A DNA stretch of 64,000 nt from Salinigranum halophilum (GCF_007004735.1 NZ_SSNL01000006.1:496001-560000), one strand, 5' to 3'. Shown: positions 1,810 to 20,497, numbered from the stretch's first letter. The notes: generated by a model not told the origin, from the letters alone. Program-made: numbers and translations.

Positions 1810-2097
1810 TCAGTCATCTGTTTGGTCGCCGTGAGCGGCGGTCCACCCTCGATGGAAGACCGCCAGTTGGAGCATCGAGTCGAATGCTTCGCCGCTCGGT
1901 TCGTGAACGAGCATCCGTTCGTTTGGGATGGGAATCACGACGTCGTCGTCGACGAGGGCACTGACCAGCGCATGCGCGAGCTGCTCGTCAATGTCCGCGA
2001 CTGCGCTGCGGGCGGCATCTCGATCCTGTGCGATGAGTTCCGCTTCAAACTGTTCGTGGTCGGCCGCTGTATCGTCGAATGCGTCTGTATCGGGCAT
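1810..2097 (-). CDS. Small acidic haloarchaeal protein, unknown function
   Basis: Encodes 95 residues from ATG 2097 (MPDTDAFDDTAADHEQ); an ATG three codons upstream (2106) is possible. The protein is highly acidic, with Asp/Glu clusters and an alanine-rich helical middle, typical of soluble cytosolic haloarchaeal proteins. No catalytic motif or membrane segment was seen. An inverted repeat (2169-2209) lies about 70-110 bases upstream, and a TATA-like TTTATC sits near 2145-2150, so this gene may be controlled from there. The same inverted repeat recurs upstream of the primase operon near 19.95 kb, which hints at a shared regulator. Confidence 0.55.
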   Translation of the reverse strand: MPDTDAFDDTAADHEQFEAELIAQDRDAARSAVADIDEQLAHALVSALVDDDVVIPIPNERMLVHEPSGEAFDSMLQLAVFHRGWTAAHGDQTDD

Positions 2098-2168
2098 GTG
2101 AATCACGGTGGCGCGCCATTACGCGCCTCGGCCGCTCAGGCGCGGATAAACTGCTTGCTACCCCATGC

Positions 2169-12399: not shown

Positions 12400-12951
12400 C
12401 GGTTGGATCGCCGGTTGCGTCCGATTTCCGTCGGGTGGTTGCAGGGGCGGCGGACGTCCGAGACGGCCTCCTCTTGCTGCGTCCGCCAGGATGTCGGCTG
12501 GATCACTGAGCGTTGAGAGTGGGTGAACGATGTTTCTCTCTGGTCCGTCTCGCTCGCCGACGCTGTCGACGGCGATGAACAGTGTCCGCTTCACGCCCGC
12601 CACCCCCGTTGAGGCGAACTCTGCTCTGACGTCTTCGTGGATGCGTTCGACGGGTGCGCGGTCGATCGGTCAGTCGATGCGAGTCGGACTGCTGTCGTGA
12701 GAGACTGTTACTTTGAGGGCTGCCCACCGGCTGTCACTGTCGGCACTGCGTGTTGTCGTGGTGTCCTGTGCTACCCCGATGGTCCGTTCTGAACCCGTCG
12801 TCTGGTGAGCACCTCTCCATTGCTCCCACGAGTGACGACAGACACTTCCGGAAATCACCCACACGACCTCTCCTCCAAATCTGACACCTTCCCGAATCCG
12901 CTCGTCCACGGACAGCCCCCCTCTGCCTAGGTGCCCCACCAGCCGTTGCAT
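12400..12951 (-). pseudogene. Interrupted frame, probable gene remnant
   Basis: One minus-strand frame is open from about 12951 to TGA at 12670-12672, and the same frame continues beyond the stop with haloarchaeal codon use (ERIHEDVRAEFASTGVAGVK and following) to about 12400. This looks like one gene broken by a nonsense mutation. The family is not recognised. A chance open frame cannot be excluded. Confidence 0.25.
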
Positions 12952-13331
12952 ATTGCATATCGACTCTTTCTTTGGACGATTTTGGCGATATGCAAGGCGA
13001 AATGACGTCCTCTCATTGCACTAAAGTCCCGTCGGGCCGATTTGAGGCGGTGAAAATCACCTCGACGAATCCACAAACAAGCTTGTAAGCCAATAATTGC
13101 TCGACGAAGGGGTGAGGAGGCTGAAATCAAGCGTTTTCGAATTTCTGCAGATGTGTCTCTCATCTGTCCGATACACCGTGCTGTCTCTCTCGAATCCCCT
13201 CGAGCCGAGAAACACCCCCGGTCCCCCCGATTTCGGGTGTGTTAGCCGCTGAAAATTGCTCGACGGAGATTCGGAACAATTGGATTCCGTACTGTGATAG
13301 AGTTCTAGAAAATCAAAGATATATCTGAACG
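12952..13331. other. Intergenic, no gene
   Basis: This 380-base stretch upstream of the 3' end of the primase operon is lower in GC than its surroundings and contains a short repeat TGCATATTGCATAT near 12950-12965. Nothing coding was seen. Confidence 0.5.
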
Positions 13332-14858
13332 TCAGAACTGTTCAGTCGTGTCGGTCGAACCCCTGTCGACTTGCTCGTACATCTTATCTGGGAACGGAAG
13401 ACTCCCCCAGATCGAATAGGGACATTGGTCTTGACCGATGCAGTAGCGCTGCAGGTCGTCGTTGTCGCAGTTCATCGGCAGCGGCGTGTCGCCGCCGATC
13501 GTGTTCGAGAATTCGTAGCGGACCTGGTACTCGGTCTCGTGCTCGTCGTACCAGGGCCATCGCGAAAAGAGATCCTTTAGATCCGTAACGATCTCGTCGA
13601 GGCTGCTCTCCCGATACTGTGGCAGCCACATCACCATCCGCGCAAAGTTGTAGAGGTCCTTTCGGACGGGTTTTTTCTCATGCAGTCGGGCCTCCATATT
13701 CGCCATACAGGGGAGTTCGAATACGTCTTCGATGTGCGTCACCTCTATCTGTTCCGAGCTGGTCCCTGATCGCCCGATACAGTACGTGTTGACGCGATCG
13801 TCGCGGTCGATCGTGACTGCCGAATGTGACTCGTGATCGGTGAGGCTCTTCGCAAGACCACTCGGACTCGAGATCCAGTCCGTTACGGAAGATTCCCAGT
13901 CGTCCTGGGCGTCGTACGCGTCGACTGCTCGATAGAGCTCTTTTGCGGTGTGGAACTCTCCTTGCTGGACGACATCATCGCGAGCATCACGGAGAGCTCG
14001 TCGAAGCACGCGGATCAATCGCTCGCCAGGTTCCCAGTTTCGCCAGATTCGCTCGTGATGGCCGGTTTCGACAAAACGGTCGATCTGCTCCGTGATGGCT
14101 GACTCGTTCGTGGTCAGCCACGTCAACTGATCCTCGGAAAGCCCGCCCTCCTGAACGACCAAGAGCTTCTTGAACGCCTCCTTTGCGTAGTCACGATACT
14201 TGCTGTCGAAATCACCGACGGGGACGTACAGATGATTGTTTTTCACTCGCGTCAGTATCTCTCTCGTCTCCCCTCCGTCGTTCGCAGACTCGGCTGCTGC
14301 CCGAACGAGACAGTTCCGTGATGCCGAAGCCATTGGAATTTCGAGGTACAACCCATCCCCGAACTCTGCCAGCTCCGTGATGCCCGTGCAGACTCGACCC
14401 GGATGTGGCCCATCCTCACTTGGCTGTTTGCTGTACAGCACCTCCGCGATATCCTGTTGAAGCGACCACTCACCGTACGAGCTGATGAGTGACGCGAGAT
14501 TGTTGACGTACAATTCACGGATGTCGTAGAGTACCTGGATATTTCGTGGTGAGGTGTGCTCGAATTTCGGGTGTGCTTTCACGCAGACCGCACTCAGTGT
14601 CGCGAGCACTGCAAGCGTCCCTGGCTCATCGACGAACGGTTCCTCGGCCGCGTCGGAGCGTACTTGCTCTTTGAGCGCAGCCTTCCCGAACCGCTCGATA
14701 TCGTTCACGAGAGCAGTGGGTTGGCCCTCGCCGTCGACGATGTAGCGATTGTAGCCCCGCGTAAACAGCTGGTTGATGTGTGATTCCCTGTATTCTGTGG
14801 GGAGCGCTGCAATCCGATATGCGACGTCCTCGTCGTCACGGGCGTTACGCGATTTCAT
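13332..14858 (-). CDS. PriL-like primase large-subunit protein with Fe-S domain
   Basis: The 508-residue protein is last in a coupled operon; its ATG at 14858 overlaps the stop of the PriS-like gene (ATGA). The C-terminal third looks like the PriL Fe-S domain: LPCMANMEARLHEKKPVRKD, then an LF...D.....TEYQVRYEF stretch, then MNCDNDDLQRYCIGQDQC. The four candidate cluster ligands are Cys384, Cys464, Cys473 and Cys479. The N-terminal 350 residues are mostly helical and not recognisable. In cellular primase the large subunit helps initiate synthesis and hands over the primer; here it would partner the adjacent PriS-like protein. It is much longer than chromosomal archaeal PriL (about 350 residues). 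The match was recognised by eye and should be tested by profile search. Confidence 0.7.
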   Translation of the reverse strand: MKSRNARDDEDVAYRIAALPTEYRESHINQLFTRGYNRYIVDGEGQPTALVNDIERFGKAALKEQVRSDAAEEPFVDEPGTLAVLATLSAVCVKAHPKFEHTSPRNIQVLYDIRELYVNNLASLISSYGEWSLQQDIAEVLYSKQPSEDGPHPGRVCTGITELAEFGDGLYLEIPMASASRNCLVRAAAESANDGGETREILTRVKNNHLYVPVGDFDSKYRDYAKEAFKKLLVVQEGGLSEDQLTWLTTNESAITEQIDRFVETGHHERIWRNWEPGERLIRVLRRALRDARDDVVQQGEFHTAKELYRAVDAYDAQDDWESSVTDWISSPSGLAKSLTDHESHSAVTIDRDDRVNTYCIGRSGTSSEQIEVTHIEDVFELPCMANMEARLHEKKPVRKDLYNFARMVMWLPQYRESSLDEIVTDLKDLFSRWPWYDEHETEYQVRYEFSNTIGGDTPLPMNCDNDDLQRYCIGQDQCPYSIWGSLPFPDKMYEQVDRGSTDTTEQF

Positions 14859-15739
14859 CCCGAGATTACCTCCGGCGTCGCTGACCGAACGTCGAATTCC
14901 GGACTTTCGATGGGTTGGACGATGCGACAGACGTCGGCGTGGAGTGAGTAGGGAAGGCGGGCGACACGCCGGCGGTCAGCCGTCACGACCGGGTCAATCG
15001 GGATGTCATACGTCTTGAGGAGAAGGTCGTTCAGCACCTCACGGCTCTGTTCGTCGTATCGGTGCGCAGGGTCAGTATCGAGGAGGTAGACGTGGACGCC
15101 CTGCCCACTGTAGACGACCATTGTCTCCTCGGCGTTGAACTCCTCGGTGAAGATGTCGCGGACCTCAAACCCGTACTCGATAGCACGGTTGACGTCCTCG
15201 AAGGCATACGGATACCCCGTTGGGGCCGAGTCGATAATTCCTGAAGCCTCGAGGAGCGTCCCCTTTGTCTGATTGTCTCCAGCCTCCGAGACGTCACCTG
15301 CTGCGCGTTCCCAAGCGATCTCTTTGGCGTCGATGTCGACAAGAAGGATCCACGGCCGATCCCAGTGATCTAGCGCATAATAGACGGCATCGGGACGCGG
15401 GTCTGGTTGCTCCAGCACCGCCGGATCAGCGAGGGCGAACGGGCTCCATCCGAGGGGATCGTTTCGAGCAGGGTGCCGAATGAACTCCAGAACGTCTTCG
15501 AACGTACTGAACTCTGCAGTCGCCCGGTTTCCAGATGCATCTGTTTGCCAGGTACCGCGTCGGATGAAGTTCTTGTCAGGGGCGTTTTCTGTGCGAACCG
15601 GATGTGGGTCTCGAAAAGAGAGTGCGTACTCCTTCGGCCCGTCCGCCGTGATGAACTCAGGGAGGCGGTCGACGTAGCGAGGGAATTCTTCGGCGTAGTA
15701 GGTGTAGAGTTCCTCACGGGTTGCCTGTCGCCACGTCAT
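14855..15739 (-). CDS. PriS-like archaeo-eukaryotic primase catalytic subunit
   Basis: The 294-residue protein begins at ATG 15739, overlapping the ATPase stop by four bases. All three AEP motifs are in order: WILLVDIDAKE (metal-binding Asp135 and Asp137), VVYSGQGVHVYLLD (the SGxGxH motif, residues 211-216), and DPVVTADRRRVARLPYSLH (249-267), which matches the third Asp and the R-x-P-x-SLH of PriS. It should make RNA or DNA primers with the PriL-like protein downstream. It is shorter than chromosomal PriS and lacks an obvious zinc knuckle. The neighbours imply a role in replicating or repairing an element rather than the chromosome. Confidence 0.85.
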   Translation of the reverse strand: MTWRQATREELYTYYAEEFPRYVDRLPEFITADGPKEYALSFRDPHPVRTENAPDKNFIRRGTWQTDASGNRATAEFSTFEDVLEFIRHPARNDPLGWSPFALADPAVLEQPDPRPDAVYYALDHWDRPWILLVDIDAKEIAWERAAGDVSEAGDNQTKGTLLEASGIIDSAPTGYPYAFEDVNRAIEYGFEVRDIFTEEFNAEETMVVYSGQGVHVYLLDTDPAHRYDEQSREVLNDLLLKTYDIPIDPVVTADRRRVARLPYSLHADVCRIVQPIESPEFDVRSATPEVISG

Positions 15740-18700
15740 TGGTTGACCTCATGGTCGAGGTTTTTGAACCCACGAACAGTGGTCATGCCCGCTGCATCGA
15801 AGTCTTCGACAGCGTCCCTGATCGCCGAAAACGAGCGTGCGTCACGCCCGCTGACGCTCTCGTCGATCCGGTCCCCCTCAGCAAGTCGATCGAGCACTTC
15901 GAGCGCTGTCTCGCGATTGTTGAACGCCCAGATCGCATCGGCGTCCACCGCGGCGAGTTTGTCGAAGTCGTCAATCGATGCATGGCTGTTGTTACTCGGG
16001 AGTTCAACCTCGCCGACCCACACGAGTTCACCATCAGCATCGAGGCCCGCAACGTCGAACACCGTCTCCTCATTGTACTCGTAGTATGGCTCGACCTGTT
16101 CGACGCTGTCGAGGGAGTTTATCCACTGTTCGAGTAGCTTCACACCGACCTTATGGGGTGTCTTCTCTCCGATGTCTCCCTGACCAGGACCGACCTTGAG
16201 TCGCTGACCGAGCAAGTCACGCCCTGCCGGGAGAACGGTGTAGTATTTCCGACCGCACGCTTGGCACTCCTCCACCAGGTCTTGCTCTACGAGTCGTTGG
16301 ACGTCCAGATCATCGAAGTCGTTCTCGAACGAACTCATTGAATCAATGAGTCTATGATCTGGTGCGTCGCCGTTCATCACGTCGAGAACGCGGATCAGGA
16401 ACCGGATGTCGTCGTGAGTGAGGCCACGCCGCCGGAGTTCCTCATCTGCGACAGGTACACCACCGTCTCGTACTGGCGACGGCCCGCGCTCATCGACAGG
16501 TGACCCTTCTTCACCGACTGGTTCATCCGTATCAGTTGCTCCGGAATCGCGATACGGTGAGTTGGTGTCTGTGTCCTCTTCATCCTCATCTTCATCGACC
16601 GTTGAATCGCTGGTTGCCTCTCCGATGAACGACGATTGTGTCGGGTCTGTGGCTGTCGACCGTTCGTCGTTCGGTCTACTTCCCCAGCCCTCACCTCCCA
16701 CACTCTCCGATTCACCGGTATCCTCTGCAAGCCCGTATTGGACCTGTGTTCGTTCCGTCAGTTGTGGGAGGACATCGGCCTCGAACTGCGCTTCTTGTTC
16801 AACAGAGAGCGGGTCATCACTCTCTGGATGTCCGGGTGCAATTGGGAGCGACTTCAGAGAAAACGGGGCTGGACCCGTCTCCCCGAACAACGGACTCGGG
16901 AGCTGAACAATCCACTCTCCGTTGGGGAGCGTGTTGATCCGATTCCGGAGGTCGGTCGGGCTCAGGTCTTCGTGAGCGAGTGACTCTATGAGATCACGAT
17001 CGATCGAGATGTTCCCGATGATTTTGGTCTTAATATTGTTGAGCAGTTCGTTGTAGGCTCGCTCACTCCGCTCTCGAACCTGACCGGGGAACTGCATCAT
17101 CAGCCCCATGCTCAGCCCGAACGACCGCCCCTGCGGAAGCAACTGTTTTGAGACGAGCTTCGTTGACGCAATGGGCGCCGCCTCTTCGATGATGAGATTG
17201 GTGGTCTTGTCGTAGTCGGTGATGCCATCGCGACGACGAATCTGTACGGCGTCCCAGAGGTTGCTCAATAACAGGAGCGTGATCGCTCGTTGTGCCTCCG
17301 GTCGGAGGTCTCCGATGTCGAACAATATCGTGACGTCCCTGCTCAGGAAGTCAGCAAAGTCAAATCGATTCCCAAGGTACTCGCCGTCACTCCCCGCGTC
17401 GCGTTGTTCCGGAACATGGTTGAAGAGTTGTCGAAGGTGGGTGTCCTCCATGAGTTTGTCAAGGCGATTTCCAACGGCATTCATCGACGTCTCGAACTGG
17501 TGGTCGTCCTTCGCTAAGTGTCGTGTCAGCGACTCCTCGACGTTCTGGTTGGCTGCCGAGATGGGTGGGATGATACTGTCTCGCTGCATCTGTAGTGCCG
17601 CCTCGAAGAGGTCATTGAGGCCGAAGGCGTCACTTCCGTACTCTTTGTCGAACAGCGCCTTGATCAGGTAACCGATGATCTCGTTGGCCACGAACGCCTG
17701 TTCGTACGTATCGCGCCCCATGACCATCCGAAGGATGTCGTGGAAGTGGTCGACCTTATCCTGAATCGCATCCTCACGGGGCCGTCCGCGTGCAATCGCA
17801 GGGCGGATGTCGAAAAACGAAACGGCCGGAAGGATTTCTGGAACGCGGAAGTAGTAGACATCGTCCACACTGCCGAATAGCTTGAAGTGAGCCCGAAGGT
17901 AGTTCACACACATCCCATCGCCCTTCGGGTCGAATGTAATCACGGGACCACTGGTTGTCGCTCGAAGTGAGAGGGTATCGTTGGTATTCGATGTGGACTT
18001 TCCGCTGCCAGTCGATGCGAATCGCGCGTAATGCATCGTCAACAGCCTCGGTGGGATTCGGACCGGGTCCCGATGGCAAGTCCTGTTCTCATCGAGGGCG
18101 TACCCGATTGCCATTCCTGTCTGGAACTGCTGAAGTAGGTCCGGGTTTGGCAGCGGAAGTGGACGCCGACTCTGTTGTTCAGCACGCGTCCCTCGGATGC
18201 CGTCTGCCGAGAGTTCCTTCGCAGACGGAACGAGGAGGAACTGAGCGAGTTCAGCTCCATCGAGGACGAAATCCGGGCGGGTCTTTCCTCGGCCAGTCAC
18301 GACTTGTCGCTCCAGCACTCTGCTGAGGGCTGTCCGGGCAGCCTTCTCTCTCGTTTTCTCACGAAATCTTCCCGCTCGAAGCCGCTCTCCGCTCACTTGA
18401 TAGAAGGGGCCACTCACCGAGTCGAAGACATGACAGAGTGCGTCCATCCGGTTCGCGAGGTGATCACGAGCTGATTCTGCAGTCGGGACACCTACCGCCC
18501 GGATATTGACGCTGAACGATCGCGTAGAATTCTTCTGTTCGATTGCGTCGATACGTTTGGCGACGGACTCACTGAGACGCTCCTTTGAGGATGATTCTCG
18601 TTCTAGTCCTCCATCGAGTAGCGTCCCCACGAACTGCTGAAAGACGGTGTCTCGTCCGTCAAGCAATTCTGCAACCCTGAGGTCGGCCTCCGACTGCCAG

Positions 18701-19530
18701 ACGGTCCGTGGTTGGAAGACCACCTGAAACGCAATGGGGGACGTCGCCTGTGTCACGTGGTCGATGAGTGACGCGAGTGCCCGTCCGTTTCTCTCATCAA
18801 CCGTCGATTCGTCACCTGAACTCTCACTCGTAATGTGGGGTAATGACGTCATCCAGTCTCTCGATCGGGTGGCCGAAGCAGACCAGTGTACGCCCACTGG
18901 TGAGACTGCATCGAGACTCGGGCGTGCGAGTATCGTCCCGTCGAACGTCTCGGTCGGCTTCGTGAGTGGGATCTCTGACGCTCCACTCGAGGCGTCACTG
19001 GGTGGGGCGAGTTTGAGTACCGTCTCTCCAGCCTGAACGGAGTGGTCGAACGCAGAGTTGCTCCCTGCGTTCTCAATCGAATCGGCTGCGTCCGATTGGT
19101 CTGGCTGTGAATCCGTCGTGTCGACCGTGGTTCGTTCACTCGCTCCGAACTCGTACCGGAGGTTTCCTGCAGTATACTGTTCGATAAAGTCCGGCCGTGT
19201 GAATTCGACTGGCTGAATAAGCCGTGAGGCGACATCGAACTCGACACGTGAAATCTCGAACGTCGATGGATAGATCGAACGCAGTCGTTTCTCGAGCGTA
19301 TCGAGATGCCCATCCACACCGTAATAGAATTCGACAGGCTCGTCTGCTCCCTCACTCAACGTAAGGAACTCGAACTGCGTCGGCGCTGGAGTCCAGAAGG
19401 GATTCAACCGCTCGATTGTCCCACCCGAATTAGTTGTCTGGAGTGTATGTAGACTTTCGAGCAATCGCTGAACGTGTTCTGTGCTAATACGCTCAGACGT
19501 GGGCCGAACGCGGACGTATTCACGCCTCAT
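15736..19530 (-). CDS. HerA/VirD4-like ATPase with zinc and nuclease-like tail
   Basis: The 1264-residue protein starts at ATG 19530, which overlaps the preceding stop (ATGA); a longer 25-residue extension is rejected for that reason. After about 480 residues of alpha/beta sequence comes Walker A ASTGSGKST (506-513), then ITFDPKGDG (531-539, the VirD4/HerA-type post-loop), VTILFDIGD (733-741) and a Walker-B-like LIIEEAAPIAS (779-789). An acidic linker (about 940-1020) leads to a helical, winged-helix-like part, a Cys pair CQACGRKYY (1089-1097) and a C-terminal domain with ETVFDVAGLDADG followed by WVGEVEL (1155-1176), which resembles a PD-(D/E)XK active site (D...ExE/K). Such ATPases pump or translocate DNA. 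Operon with the primase pair. Confidence 0.85.
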   Translation of the reverse strand: MRREYVRVRPTSERISTEHVQRLLESLHTLQTTNSGGTIERLNPFWTPAPTQFEFLTLSEGADEPVEFYYGVDGHLDTLEKRLRSIYPSTFEISRVEFDVASRLIQPVEFTRPDFIEQYTAGNLRYEFGASERTTVDTTDSQPDQSDAADSIENAGSNSAFDHSVQAGETVLKLAPPSDASSGASEIPLTKPTETFDGTILARPSLDAVSPVGVHWSASATRSRDWMTSLPHITSESSGDESTVDERNGRALASLIDHVTQATSPIAFQVVFQPRTVWQSEADLRVAELLDGRDTVFQQFVGTLLDGGLERESSSKERLSESVAKRIDAIEQKNSTRSFSVNIRAVGVPTAESARDHLANRMDALCHVFDSVSGPFYQVSGERLRAGRFREKTREKAARTALSRVLERQVVTGRGKTRPDFVLDGAELAQFLLVPSAKELSADGIRGTRAEQQSRRPLPLPNPDLLQQFQTGMAIGYALDENRTCHRDPVRIPPRLLTMHYARFASTGSGKSTSNTNDTLSLRATTSGPVITFDPKGDGMCVNYLRAHFKLFGSVDDVYYFRVPEILPAVSFFDIRPAIARGRPREDAIQDKVDHFHDILRMVMGRDTYEQAFVANEIIGYLIKALFDKEYGSDAFGLNDLFEAALQMQRDSIIPPISAANQNVEESLTRHLAKDDHQFETSMNAVGNRLDKLMEDTHLRQLFNHVPEQRDAGSDGEYLGNRFDFADFLSRDVTILFDIGDLRPEAQRAITLLLLSNLWDAVQIRRRDGITDYDKTTNLIIEEAAPIASTKLVSKQLLPQGRSFGLSMGLMMQFPGQVRERSERAYNELLNNIKTKIIGNISIDRDLIESLAHEDLSPTDLRNRINTLPNGEWIVQLPSPLFGETGPAPFSLKSLPIAPGHPESDDPLSVEQEAQFEADVLPQLTERTQVQYGLAEDTGESESVGGEGWGSRPNDERSTATDPTQSSFIGEATSDSTVDEDEDEEDTDTNSPYRDSGATDTDEPVGEEGSPVDERGPSPVRDGGVPVADEELRRRGLTHDDIRFLIRVLDVMNGDAPDHRLIDSMSSFENDFDDLDVQRLVEQDLVEECQACGRKYYTVLPAGRDLLGQRLKVGPGQGDIGEKTPHKVGVKLLEQWINSLDSVEQVEPYYEYNEETVFDVAGLDADGELVWVGEVELPSNNSHASIDDFDKLAAVDADAIWAFNNRETALEVLDRLAEGDRIDESVSGRDARSFSAIRDAVEDFDAAGMTTVRGFKNLDHEVNQ

Positions 19531-19823
19531 TCCATCCCCCGAACTAGTCTGTCGTCTCGGTGACGGCCTCGGCACGGACCGGTGACCTCCTCGCGCCCGA
19601 ACCACCCAGTGCGATCTTGACTCGTGTCCCAGATCGGCCCACCTCTGATCACGTCACACCTGAGACACTGCCAGAGTGACTCACTAGTATCAAACTCCAA
19701 GCCACGACTGAACTTCGTGAACTGATGCTCCGTGACGCTCGCACACTCGTGACAGGGAAGCGGGGTCAATGGGCCATCCACTACAACTTCATTTCTCGGC
19801 CACCATCGATTTCGATATTTCAT
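19527..19823 (-). CDS. Small zinc-ribbon protein, first gene of primase operon
   Basis: 98 residues from ATG 19823 (MKYRNRWWPRN); a GTG at 19892 would add 23 residues. A TATA-like TTTAAGTA at 19855-19862 supports the ATG start. Two Cys pairs, CHEC (24-27) and CLRC (53-56), form a likely four-Cys zinc ribbon, and the C-terminus is rich in Arg. Its stop overlaps the ATPase start by four bases. A DNA-binding or adaptor role for the operon is likely, but no family was recognised. Confidence 0.6.
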   Translation of the reverse strand: MKYRNRWWPRNEVVVDGPLTPLPCHECASVTEHQFTKFSRGLEFDTSESLWQCLRCDVIRGGPIWDTSQDRTGWFGREEVTGPCRGRHRDDRLVRGME

Positions 19824-20137: not shown

Positions 20138-20497
20138 ATGGGTCTCAGCGAAGAGCAAGTATTCGAAATATTAACTAACGAGTTAGAGAGCCGCGGCTTC
20201 CGATTCTTTGTCGATTGCCGATACGACTCTATTCTCCAGAAATACGAACGCCATTCAATCGTCATCGCGAATAGTGTTCCTGATATTCTCGGGATTGCCC
20301 CGGATGACTCTGTTGTTGGTTTTGAGGTCAAAGGGGACGATGACATCACGAAGGGAACCGCACAGGCTTCATCACTCCGTGCAGGAACGAATGTGTCCTT
20401 CCTCGCTGCAGATGCGTCCGAACTCTCACGATACAAAAGCCAAATACGCTCGTCAACACTCGGTTCGATAGGGGTCTCTGAGGCAGGGATTGAGTAG
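20138..20497 (+). CDS. PD-(D/E)XK nuclease-like protein, possibly truncated
   Basis: The 119-residue product carries a clear nuclease-fold core: SVPDILGIAPDDSVVGFEVK supplies PD (48-49) and E63-V-K65, followed by a Gln-containing helix KGTAQASSL. A TATA-like box near 20100-20110 suggests a short-leader transcript. The gene ends at TAG 20495-20497, but the same frame continues with coding-like sequence (WEEPNEIENKSSLQDVRAQL) to a TAG about 32 codons later, so a longer original protein may have been cut by a nonsense mutation. It is divergent from the primase operon across an inverted repeat. Its role could be DNA processing for the element or defence. Confidence 0.65.
   Translation: MGLSEEQVFEILTNELESRGFRFFVDCRYDSILQKYERHSIVIANSVPDILGIAPDDSVVGFEVKGDDDITKGTAQASSLRAGTNVSFLAADASELSRYKSQIRSSTLGSIGVSEAGIE

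Follow-up and report, generated by a model that had tools for sequence, protein, structure and literature searches.

Three consecutive genes on the minus strand of a 4.2-Mb haloarchaeal genome, encoding an ATPase (D4), a PriS-like primase (S) and a PriL-like subunit (L), probably represent the coupling-ATPase/primase module of a T4SS-bearing family of haloarchaeal plasmids, in which the primase would prime the second strand of transferred single-stranded DNA (a reading to which we assign a probability of roughly 0.6). It draws on the conserved gene order, the T4SS genes upstream in relatives, distance correlations, plasmid records, a host PriS/PriL pair encoded separately, ssDNA-binding-like and exonuclease VII genes on the same plasmids, purifying selection and the existence of transfer-linked primases in bacteria.

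Organization of the locus

In the window, the whole stretch of 64,000 nucleotides analyzed here, D4 (15736-19530), S (14855-15739) and L (13332-14858) follow one another on the minus strand and encode proteins of 1264, 294 and 508 aa. Stops and starts overlap by four bases at three junctions read in the DNA (GGAATGAGG, CCAATGACG and GGGATGAAA), counting that of a 98-aa zinc-ribbon ORF (19527-19823, minus strand). The earlier note had described four coupled genes with a fixed stoichiometry. The coupling holds for D4, S and L, whose ATGA overlaps are accompanied by purifying selection on all three frames (dN/dS versus relatives of 0.163, 0.128 and 0.094, respectively), while a fixed stoichiometry is not implied by gene overlaps. 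The zinc-ribbon ORF was dropped as an operon member and probably does not belong to the unit, since no counterpart stands upstream of D4 among ~60 relatives, its codon composition (GC1-3 0.58/0.52/0.60) is unlike that of D4, S and L, and it is weakly similar to the C-terminus of ~310-aa proteins encoded elsewhere.

The GC content is 0.54-0.59 at 10-22 kb of the window and 0.59-0.66 immediately outside, as would fit the insertion of a segment. Some 11 kb from L, a 98-aa ORF (1810-2106, minus strand) is homologous to x2, a small gene of the plasmids (58% over 87%), and is a sign of more plasmid-derived sequence nearby. Just upstream of the module, a 119-aa ORF without a match in Pfam (20138-20497, plus strand) contains a textbook PD-(D/E)XK-like stretch (PDILGIAPDDSVVGFEVKG).

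The primase-like subunits S and L

Judged by its sequence, S is an archaeo-eukaryotic primase (AEP) of the PriS type. The three motifs that the earlier note had read in this gene are present beyond chance: DxD, SGxGxH and RxPxSLH occur in order (DIDAK at residue 135, SGQGVH at 211 and RLPYSLH at 261), with motif residues invariant in 22/22 relatives. S matches TIGR00335 (E 3e-8) and PriS crystal structures in the PDB (P. horikoshii 1v33; 1g71; E 2.4e-10), all motifs being aligned in the latter case. Its scores lie under the curated PriS cut-offs (33 bits versus 143.5 for TIGR00335; 26.3 versus 26.8 for Pfam DNA_primase_S), and the wide gap to the NCBIfam value points to a separate branch, S being a relative rather than an orthologue of chromosomal PriS.

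L belongs to NCBIfam NF038197 (prim_adj_arch, ‘primase-associated protein’; 838 bits), a family named by primase adjacency only, whose name carries neither the kinship with PriL nor the link to a T4SS. The case that L is a divergent PriL with a candidate Fe-S region (Cys 384, 464, 473 and 479; 13422-13709, minus strand) is convincing when invariant cysteines, profile matches and predicted fold are taken together, the fold alone being middling. The four cysteines, which the earlier note had likened to those of the PriL Fe-S domain, are all invariant in 67/67 homologues, and PriL profiles do touch this region. NF002589 matches weakly at residues 421-479 (14 bits versus a curated cut-off of 339), and a divergent L member matches Pfam DNA_primase_lrg (PF04104) with E 2.3e-4 (20.6 bits, under the cut-off of 22.4). 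Conversely, in 24 genomes from other orders, the L profile matches a single PriL-size ORF per genome, with E values from 3e-5 to 9e-4 and nearly always over the Fe-S part; all seven ORFs retrieved are PriL.

The AlphaFold model of L (pLDDT 79, with low values around the cysteines) finds its best fold matches in PriL/p58. Primase large subunits occupy each of the 15 best rows, 1zt2_B aligns over 176 residues (Z 8.5, rmsd 4.2) and p58 matches span residues 11-488; the Z values are middling and the best Foldseek E is 0.037. The PriL assignment is built on the reverse profile matches, the cysteines and the fold, and not on two further comparisons: the L profile matched no primase among PDB sequences, and profile-profile alignment with haloarchaeal PriL is weak (prob 3%, E 0.013, one pair), though PC-M and the stretch around the last three cysteines do align. 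A winged-helix-like insert (residues ~277-363; 13770-14030, minus strand) separates the PriL-N-like and Fe-S parts and resembles Fur/Zur/MarR winged helices (Z 5.2-6.1).

The pair thus described shares with chromosomal archaeal PriS/PriL the AEP motifs of S and the four-Cys region of L; the N-terminal fold predicted for L resembles that of PriL at a middling score. It differs in the shortness of S (294 aa), in the insert of L and in belonging to a T4SS operon instead of being the host's pair, which is encoded elsewhere in the genome. AEP and PriL-related parts are also found together on the mobile elements that encode PolpTN2 and PrimPol-PV1 (PMC5862659), where the PriL/PriCT part is fused into a single protein, unlike the separate L.

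The ATPase D4

The Walker A and B motifs of DNA-pumping ATPases noted earlier in the second gene are present (ASTGSGKST and NLIIEEA), and D4 is likely, from its motor and gene context, to be a T4SS coupling protein of the FtsK/HerA superfamily. Its motor domain (residues ~457-924; 16759-18162, minus strand) is about equally close in fold to DndH-C (Z 14.7), the T4CC DotL (14.6), VirB4 (13.3) and TrwB (13.3), and somewhat less close to HerA (11.8), so that fold does not settle whether D4 is a VirD4 rather than a HerA; by sequence, D4 is nearest to HerA (T. kodakarensis HerA, E 7e-8). Classical VirD4 carries an N-terminal membrane anchor. In D4 no transmembrane segment or N-terminal anchor was found (peak 19-residue hydropathy 0.88; median 1.08 over 56 relatives).

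Two domains follow the motor. A winged-helix-like domain (residues ~1028-1110; 16201-16449, minus strand) is weakly similar to MarR/TubR/BpsR winged helices (Z 5.4-6.8). The C-terminal PD-(D/E)XK-like domain (residues ~1113-1261; 15748-16194, minus strand) contains H1126, D1159, E1174 and E1176, which do not vary across two alignments (23 and 36 proteins) down to ~25% identity; its fold gives weak rows to YaeQ and Can2 (Z 5.5-6.6) and nothing credible was found in Pfam. A nuclease-like activity of this tail is putative and uncertain, because the usual lysine of ExK is replaced by glutamate.

D4 shares with VirD4/TrwB and with the archaeal HerA-NurA/Ced-Ted systems (PMC9905601) an FtsK/HerA-type motor whose gene neighbors VirB4 and VirB6-like ones. 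Compared with these, D4 is distinguished by the missing anchor, an extra N-terminal region, the winged helix, the PD-(D/E)XK-like tail and the attached primase genes. The adjacency to VirB4 is true of the relatives, VirB4 not being next to D4 in the window.

Conserved T4SS context and spread

The earlier note had treated the unit as standing alone; in relatives it is preceded by T4SS partners, which lay outside the window. Their operon reads pilin-like, VirB6/TrbL_3, VirB3-like, VirB4, D4, S, L, so that D4-S-L forms its end, and annotated plasmids display a fuller order (small gene, pilin-like, Ig-like, lipoprotein-like, VirB6, VirB3-like, VirB4, D4, S, L). The VirB6 gene matches TrbL_3 (E 3e-137) and VirB4 matches CagE_TrbE_VirB. 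In three loci (L180, L182 and L190), VirB3-like and VirB4 parts are fused in a single ORF of 1047-1341 aa.

Neither of the two outcomes that the earlier note had named as refuting was observed: PriL profiles reach the Cys region, as described above, and the order D4-S-L is conserved in dozens of genomes across Halobacteria. Among 75 named loci, 64 contain a full-length L, with S adjacent in 60 of the 64 and D4 in 59 of those 60; VirB4 is directly upstream of D4 in 52/54 loci with room for it. Pairwise distances correlate strongly within the module (D4-S 0.96, D4-L 0.95, S-L 0.98) and between its members and VirB4 (0.86-0.90), and poorly between S or L and VirB6 (0.33-0.38; VirB6-L 0.33). The primase is thus tied to the motor and not to the channel. 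Of the earlier proposal of a replication or transfer module of an integrated element, the transfer side is supported, since haloarchaeal plasmids carry these three genes as the conserved last part of a T4SS operon.

NF038197 occurs in 103/391 haloarchaeal genomes, about a quarter, and D4-S-L is mostly located on plasmids of ~100 kb. The family is present in 90 plasmid records, all typed non-mobilizable. A viral origin of the module was considered and rejected, no match being found in phage records (0) or IMG/VR contigs. The relaxase profiles PF03432 and PF08751 are absent from three whole plasmids (positive controls matched); for the relaxase profile PF13814, the search had no matching positive control. 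According to published accounts (PMC9905601, PMC12857230), archaeal conjugative plasmids have yielded no relaxase.

Other genes recur on the same plasmids. One of them, ~10 kb downstream of L (L034 31276-32142), encodes a domain resembling OB-fold ssDNA-binding proteins (Ssb-like_OB, E 6e-4). In several plasmids, the T4SS operon is immediately preceded by the exonuclease VII genes xseA/xseB (L034 6160-7397; L216 40894-42131). Two adjacent genes downstream of the module (L034 34121-36924) encode proteins of 462 and 472 aa, the latter presumably resembling a short prokaryotic Argonaute. Isolated copies of L are also observed: some in Halococcus/Halosimplex lack S and D4, and on pNRC100 of Halobacterium NRC-1 (L033 13300-16524) an intact L has the transposase ISH8C directly upstream; the 31-kb stretch contains neither S nor D4.

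A conserved element downstream of L

A conserved non-coding element (12916-13011, minus strand) lies downstream of L and matches relatives by BLAST with 74.7% over 170 nt (E 2.6e-14). It contains a perfect 10-bp inverted repeat, TTGCATATCG/CGATATGCAA (12953-12995), around TCCAAAGAAAG. Repeats upstream of it on the same strand (13028-13265), read in the DNA and kept in relatives, are CGTCGAGCAATTTTCAG (13265-13249), CGTCGAGCAATTA (13106-13094), CGTCGAGG (13067-13060) and CGGCCCGACGGG (13039-13028). Where no insertion intervenes, the element is found ~355-420 nt past the L stop, with CGTCGAG repeats followed by an inverted repeat around an invariant TCCAAAG-AAG. Folding as single-stranded DNA gives z -3.6 in the window and -5.3 and -4.1 in two relatives, and is poor in other clades. 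A single hairpin common to all clades was rejected: the consensus structure comprises 4 pairs only, so that the inverted repeats are clade-specific.

The element was detected in 92/391 genomes, 81 of which also contain L (lists compared by eye). The window copy scores 75 bits versus ~90-104 in most relatives. Because this copy was in the training set of the covariance model of the element, the score that the model gives it is not independent; the BLAST match is. Solo copies exist on replicons without L, some near Cdc6 and two near a 322-aa protein with the D4 tail domain. These 322-aa proteins (L223 10667-11635; L228 13614-14582) share the C-terminal D..ExE domain of D4 (E 3e-8), and their replicons have a solo element and no T4SS or L within the stretch read. 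Six copies are present on one 418-kb plasmid (G265:C2), at least two of them preceding sets of the genes x1-x2-x3. Since the genes that follow begin roughly 100-190 nt past the element and run in the same direction, a leader or promoter role is possible. From its conservation, inverted repeats and location, it is a candidate oriT, priming site or leader.

The window copy and its own genome

In the window, D4-S-L has no adjacent T4SS. The same genome contains on another contig (C4; L206 7670-14487) a matching T4SS cluster, open from pilin-like to VirB4 and ending without D4-S-L. A VapC/antitoxin-like gene pair stands directly after its VirB4 on the opposite strand, and a second, divergent VirB6-VirB3x-VirB4 cluster without D4-S-L is found near a Cdc6-like gene (C5:378000-397900; L207 6459-14687). 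The same split occurs in another genome (G318), where a single contig holds D4-S-L and, ~91 kb away, a VirB4 gene interrupted by a stop.

This situation invites the reading that D4-S-L in the window has been domesticated and is decaying, a remnant without present function, which would be compatible with either role of the family. The missing T4SS, the loss of x1-x3 save for the x2 homologue, and the lower score of the element would all fit. However, the three frames are open with dN/dS of 0.09-0.16, and the T4SS cluster lacking D4-S-L in the same genome is open as well, so that the module may still act in trans; decay is a tenable but minority explanation of this copy.

Proposed mechanism and alternative roles

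In the transfer model, D4 would dock the plasmid to the VirB4/VirB6 channel and drive DNA through it. The S-L heterodimer, as a second PriS/PriL-type primase beside that of the host, would prime the single-stranded DNA entering the recipient (or the displaced donor strand), and the nuclease-like tail of D4 together with the hairpin element may take the part of relaxase and oriT. That the T4SS motor is almost always encoded with its own two-part primase suggests that haloarchaea pass DNA as a single strand, copied on arrival. Against transfer stand the anchorless D4 with its sequence proximity to HerA, the window copy without T4SS and the solo copies of L.

Primases encoded with conjugation or mobilization systems are known from bacteria, with examples such as RP4 TraC1, ColIb-P9 Sog and the MobA-linked primase of R1162 (PMC7213743; PMC12857230), and TraC1 and Sog travel into the recipient (PMC7213743). 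TraC1 and Sog are TOPRIM and not AEP enzymes, whereas D4-S-L comprises a two-subunit PriS/PriL-type primase beside a coupling ATPase.

The S-L pair could alternatively serve as the replication primase of the plasmid, its position behind D4 reflecting shared transcription only. Such a role is possible because the plasmid also carries Cdc6 and PolB; ParA is encoded on these plasmids as well, archaeal plasmids often replicate with AEP primases (PMC5862659) and solo elements are often near a Cdc6 gene. Yet it is D4 and not Cdc6 to which S-L is tied in 59/60 loci, down to ~30% identity, and on pJ7-1 the Cdc6 and PolB genes are ~40 kb or more from S-L. Moreover, the host has its own PriS/PriL pair, essential in Halobacterium (PMC1906834). 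A replicative function is the main rival of the transfer model, though a rather unlikely one.

A bolder form of the transfer model has a single operon replacing the relaxosome: the winged helix and PD-(D/E)XK-like tail of D4 would recognize and nick a conserved hairpin oriT located just past the operon, D4 would pump the single strand, and the PriS/PriL-type primase, possibly co-transferred, would start the recipient strand. We consider this scheme speculative and rather unlikely; if it were true, the solo elements would be mobilizable hitch-hikers.

A DNA defence or repair system, the other option of the earlier note, combining a HerA-like translocase, a nuclease-like tail and a primase, recalls the weak PADLOC mad8 match (E 9.7e-7, among the four proteins of that note), the fold likeness to both DndH and the HerA proteins of SIR2/DUF4297 systems and the T. 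kodakarensis HerA match, but such superfamily-wide FtsK/HerA matches are expected of any coupling protein and the conserved neighbors are T4SS and not defence genes, which makes it very unlikely as the main reading.

Significance for plasmid transfer in haloarchaea

The authors of the H. volcanii genome paper noted a region that may be devoted to DNA secretion by VirB4/D4, with no link to primases. No description of a haloarchaeal T4SS with an attached PriS/PriL-type pair was found in the literature, coverage of subscription papers being limited; the proteins themselves are not unknown, since they are annotated by name in databases.

According to Kazlauskas et al. (PMC5862659), PriL is nearly exclusive to chromosomal primases; the D4-S-L family shows that a PriL-like subunit, encoded separately, also occurs on mobile elements, from which PriL was said to be nearly absent. 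On the reading of D4-S-L as a transfer module, a primase locked to a transfer motor across a whole archaeal class argues for single-stranded transfer. For the question of how archaea move plasmids, the module provides defined genes and a candidate cis site, together with carriers in culture such as Haloferax alexandrinus.
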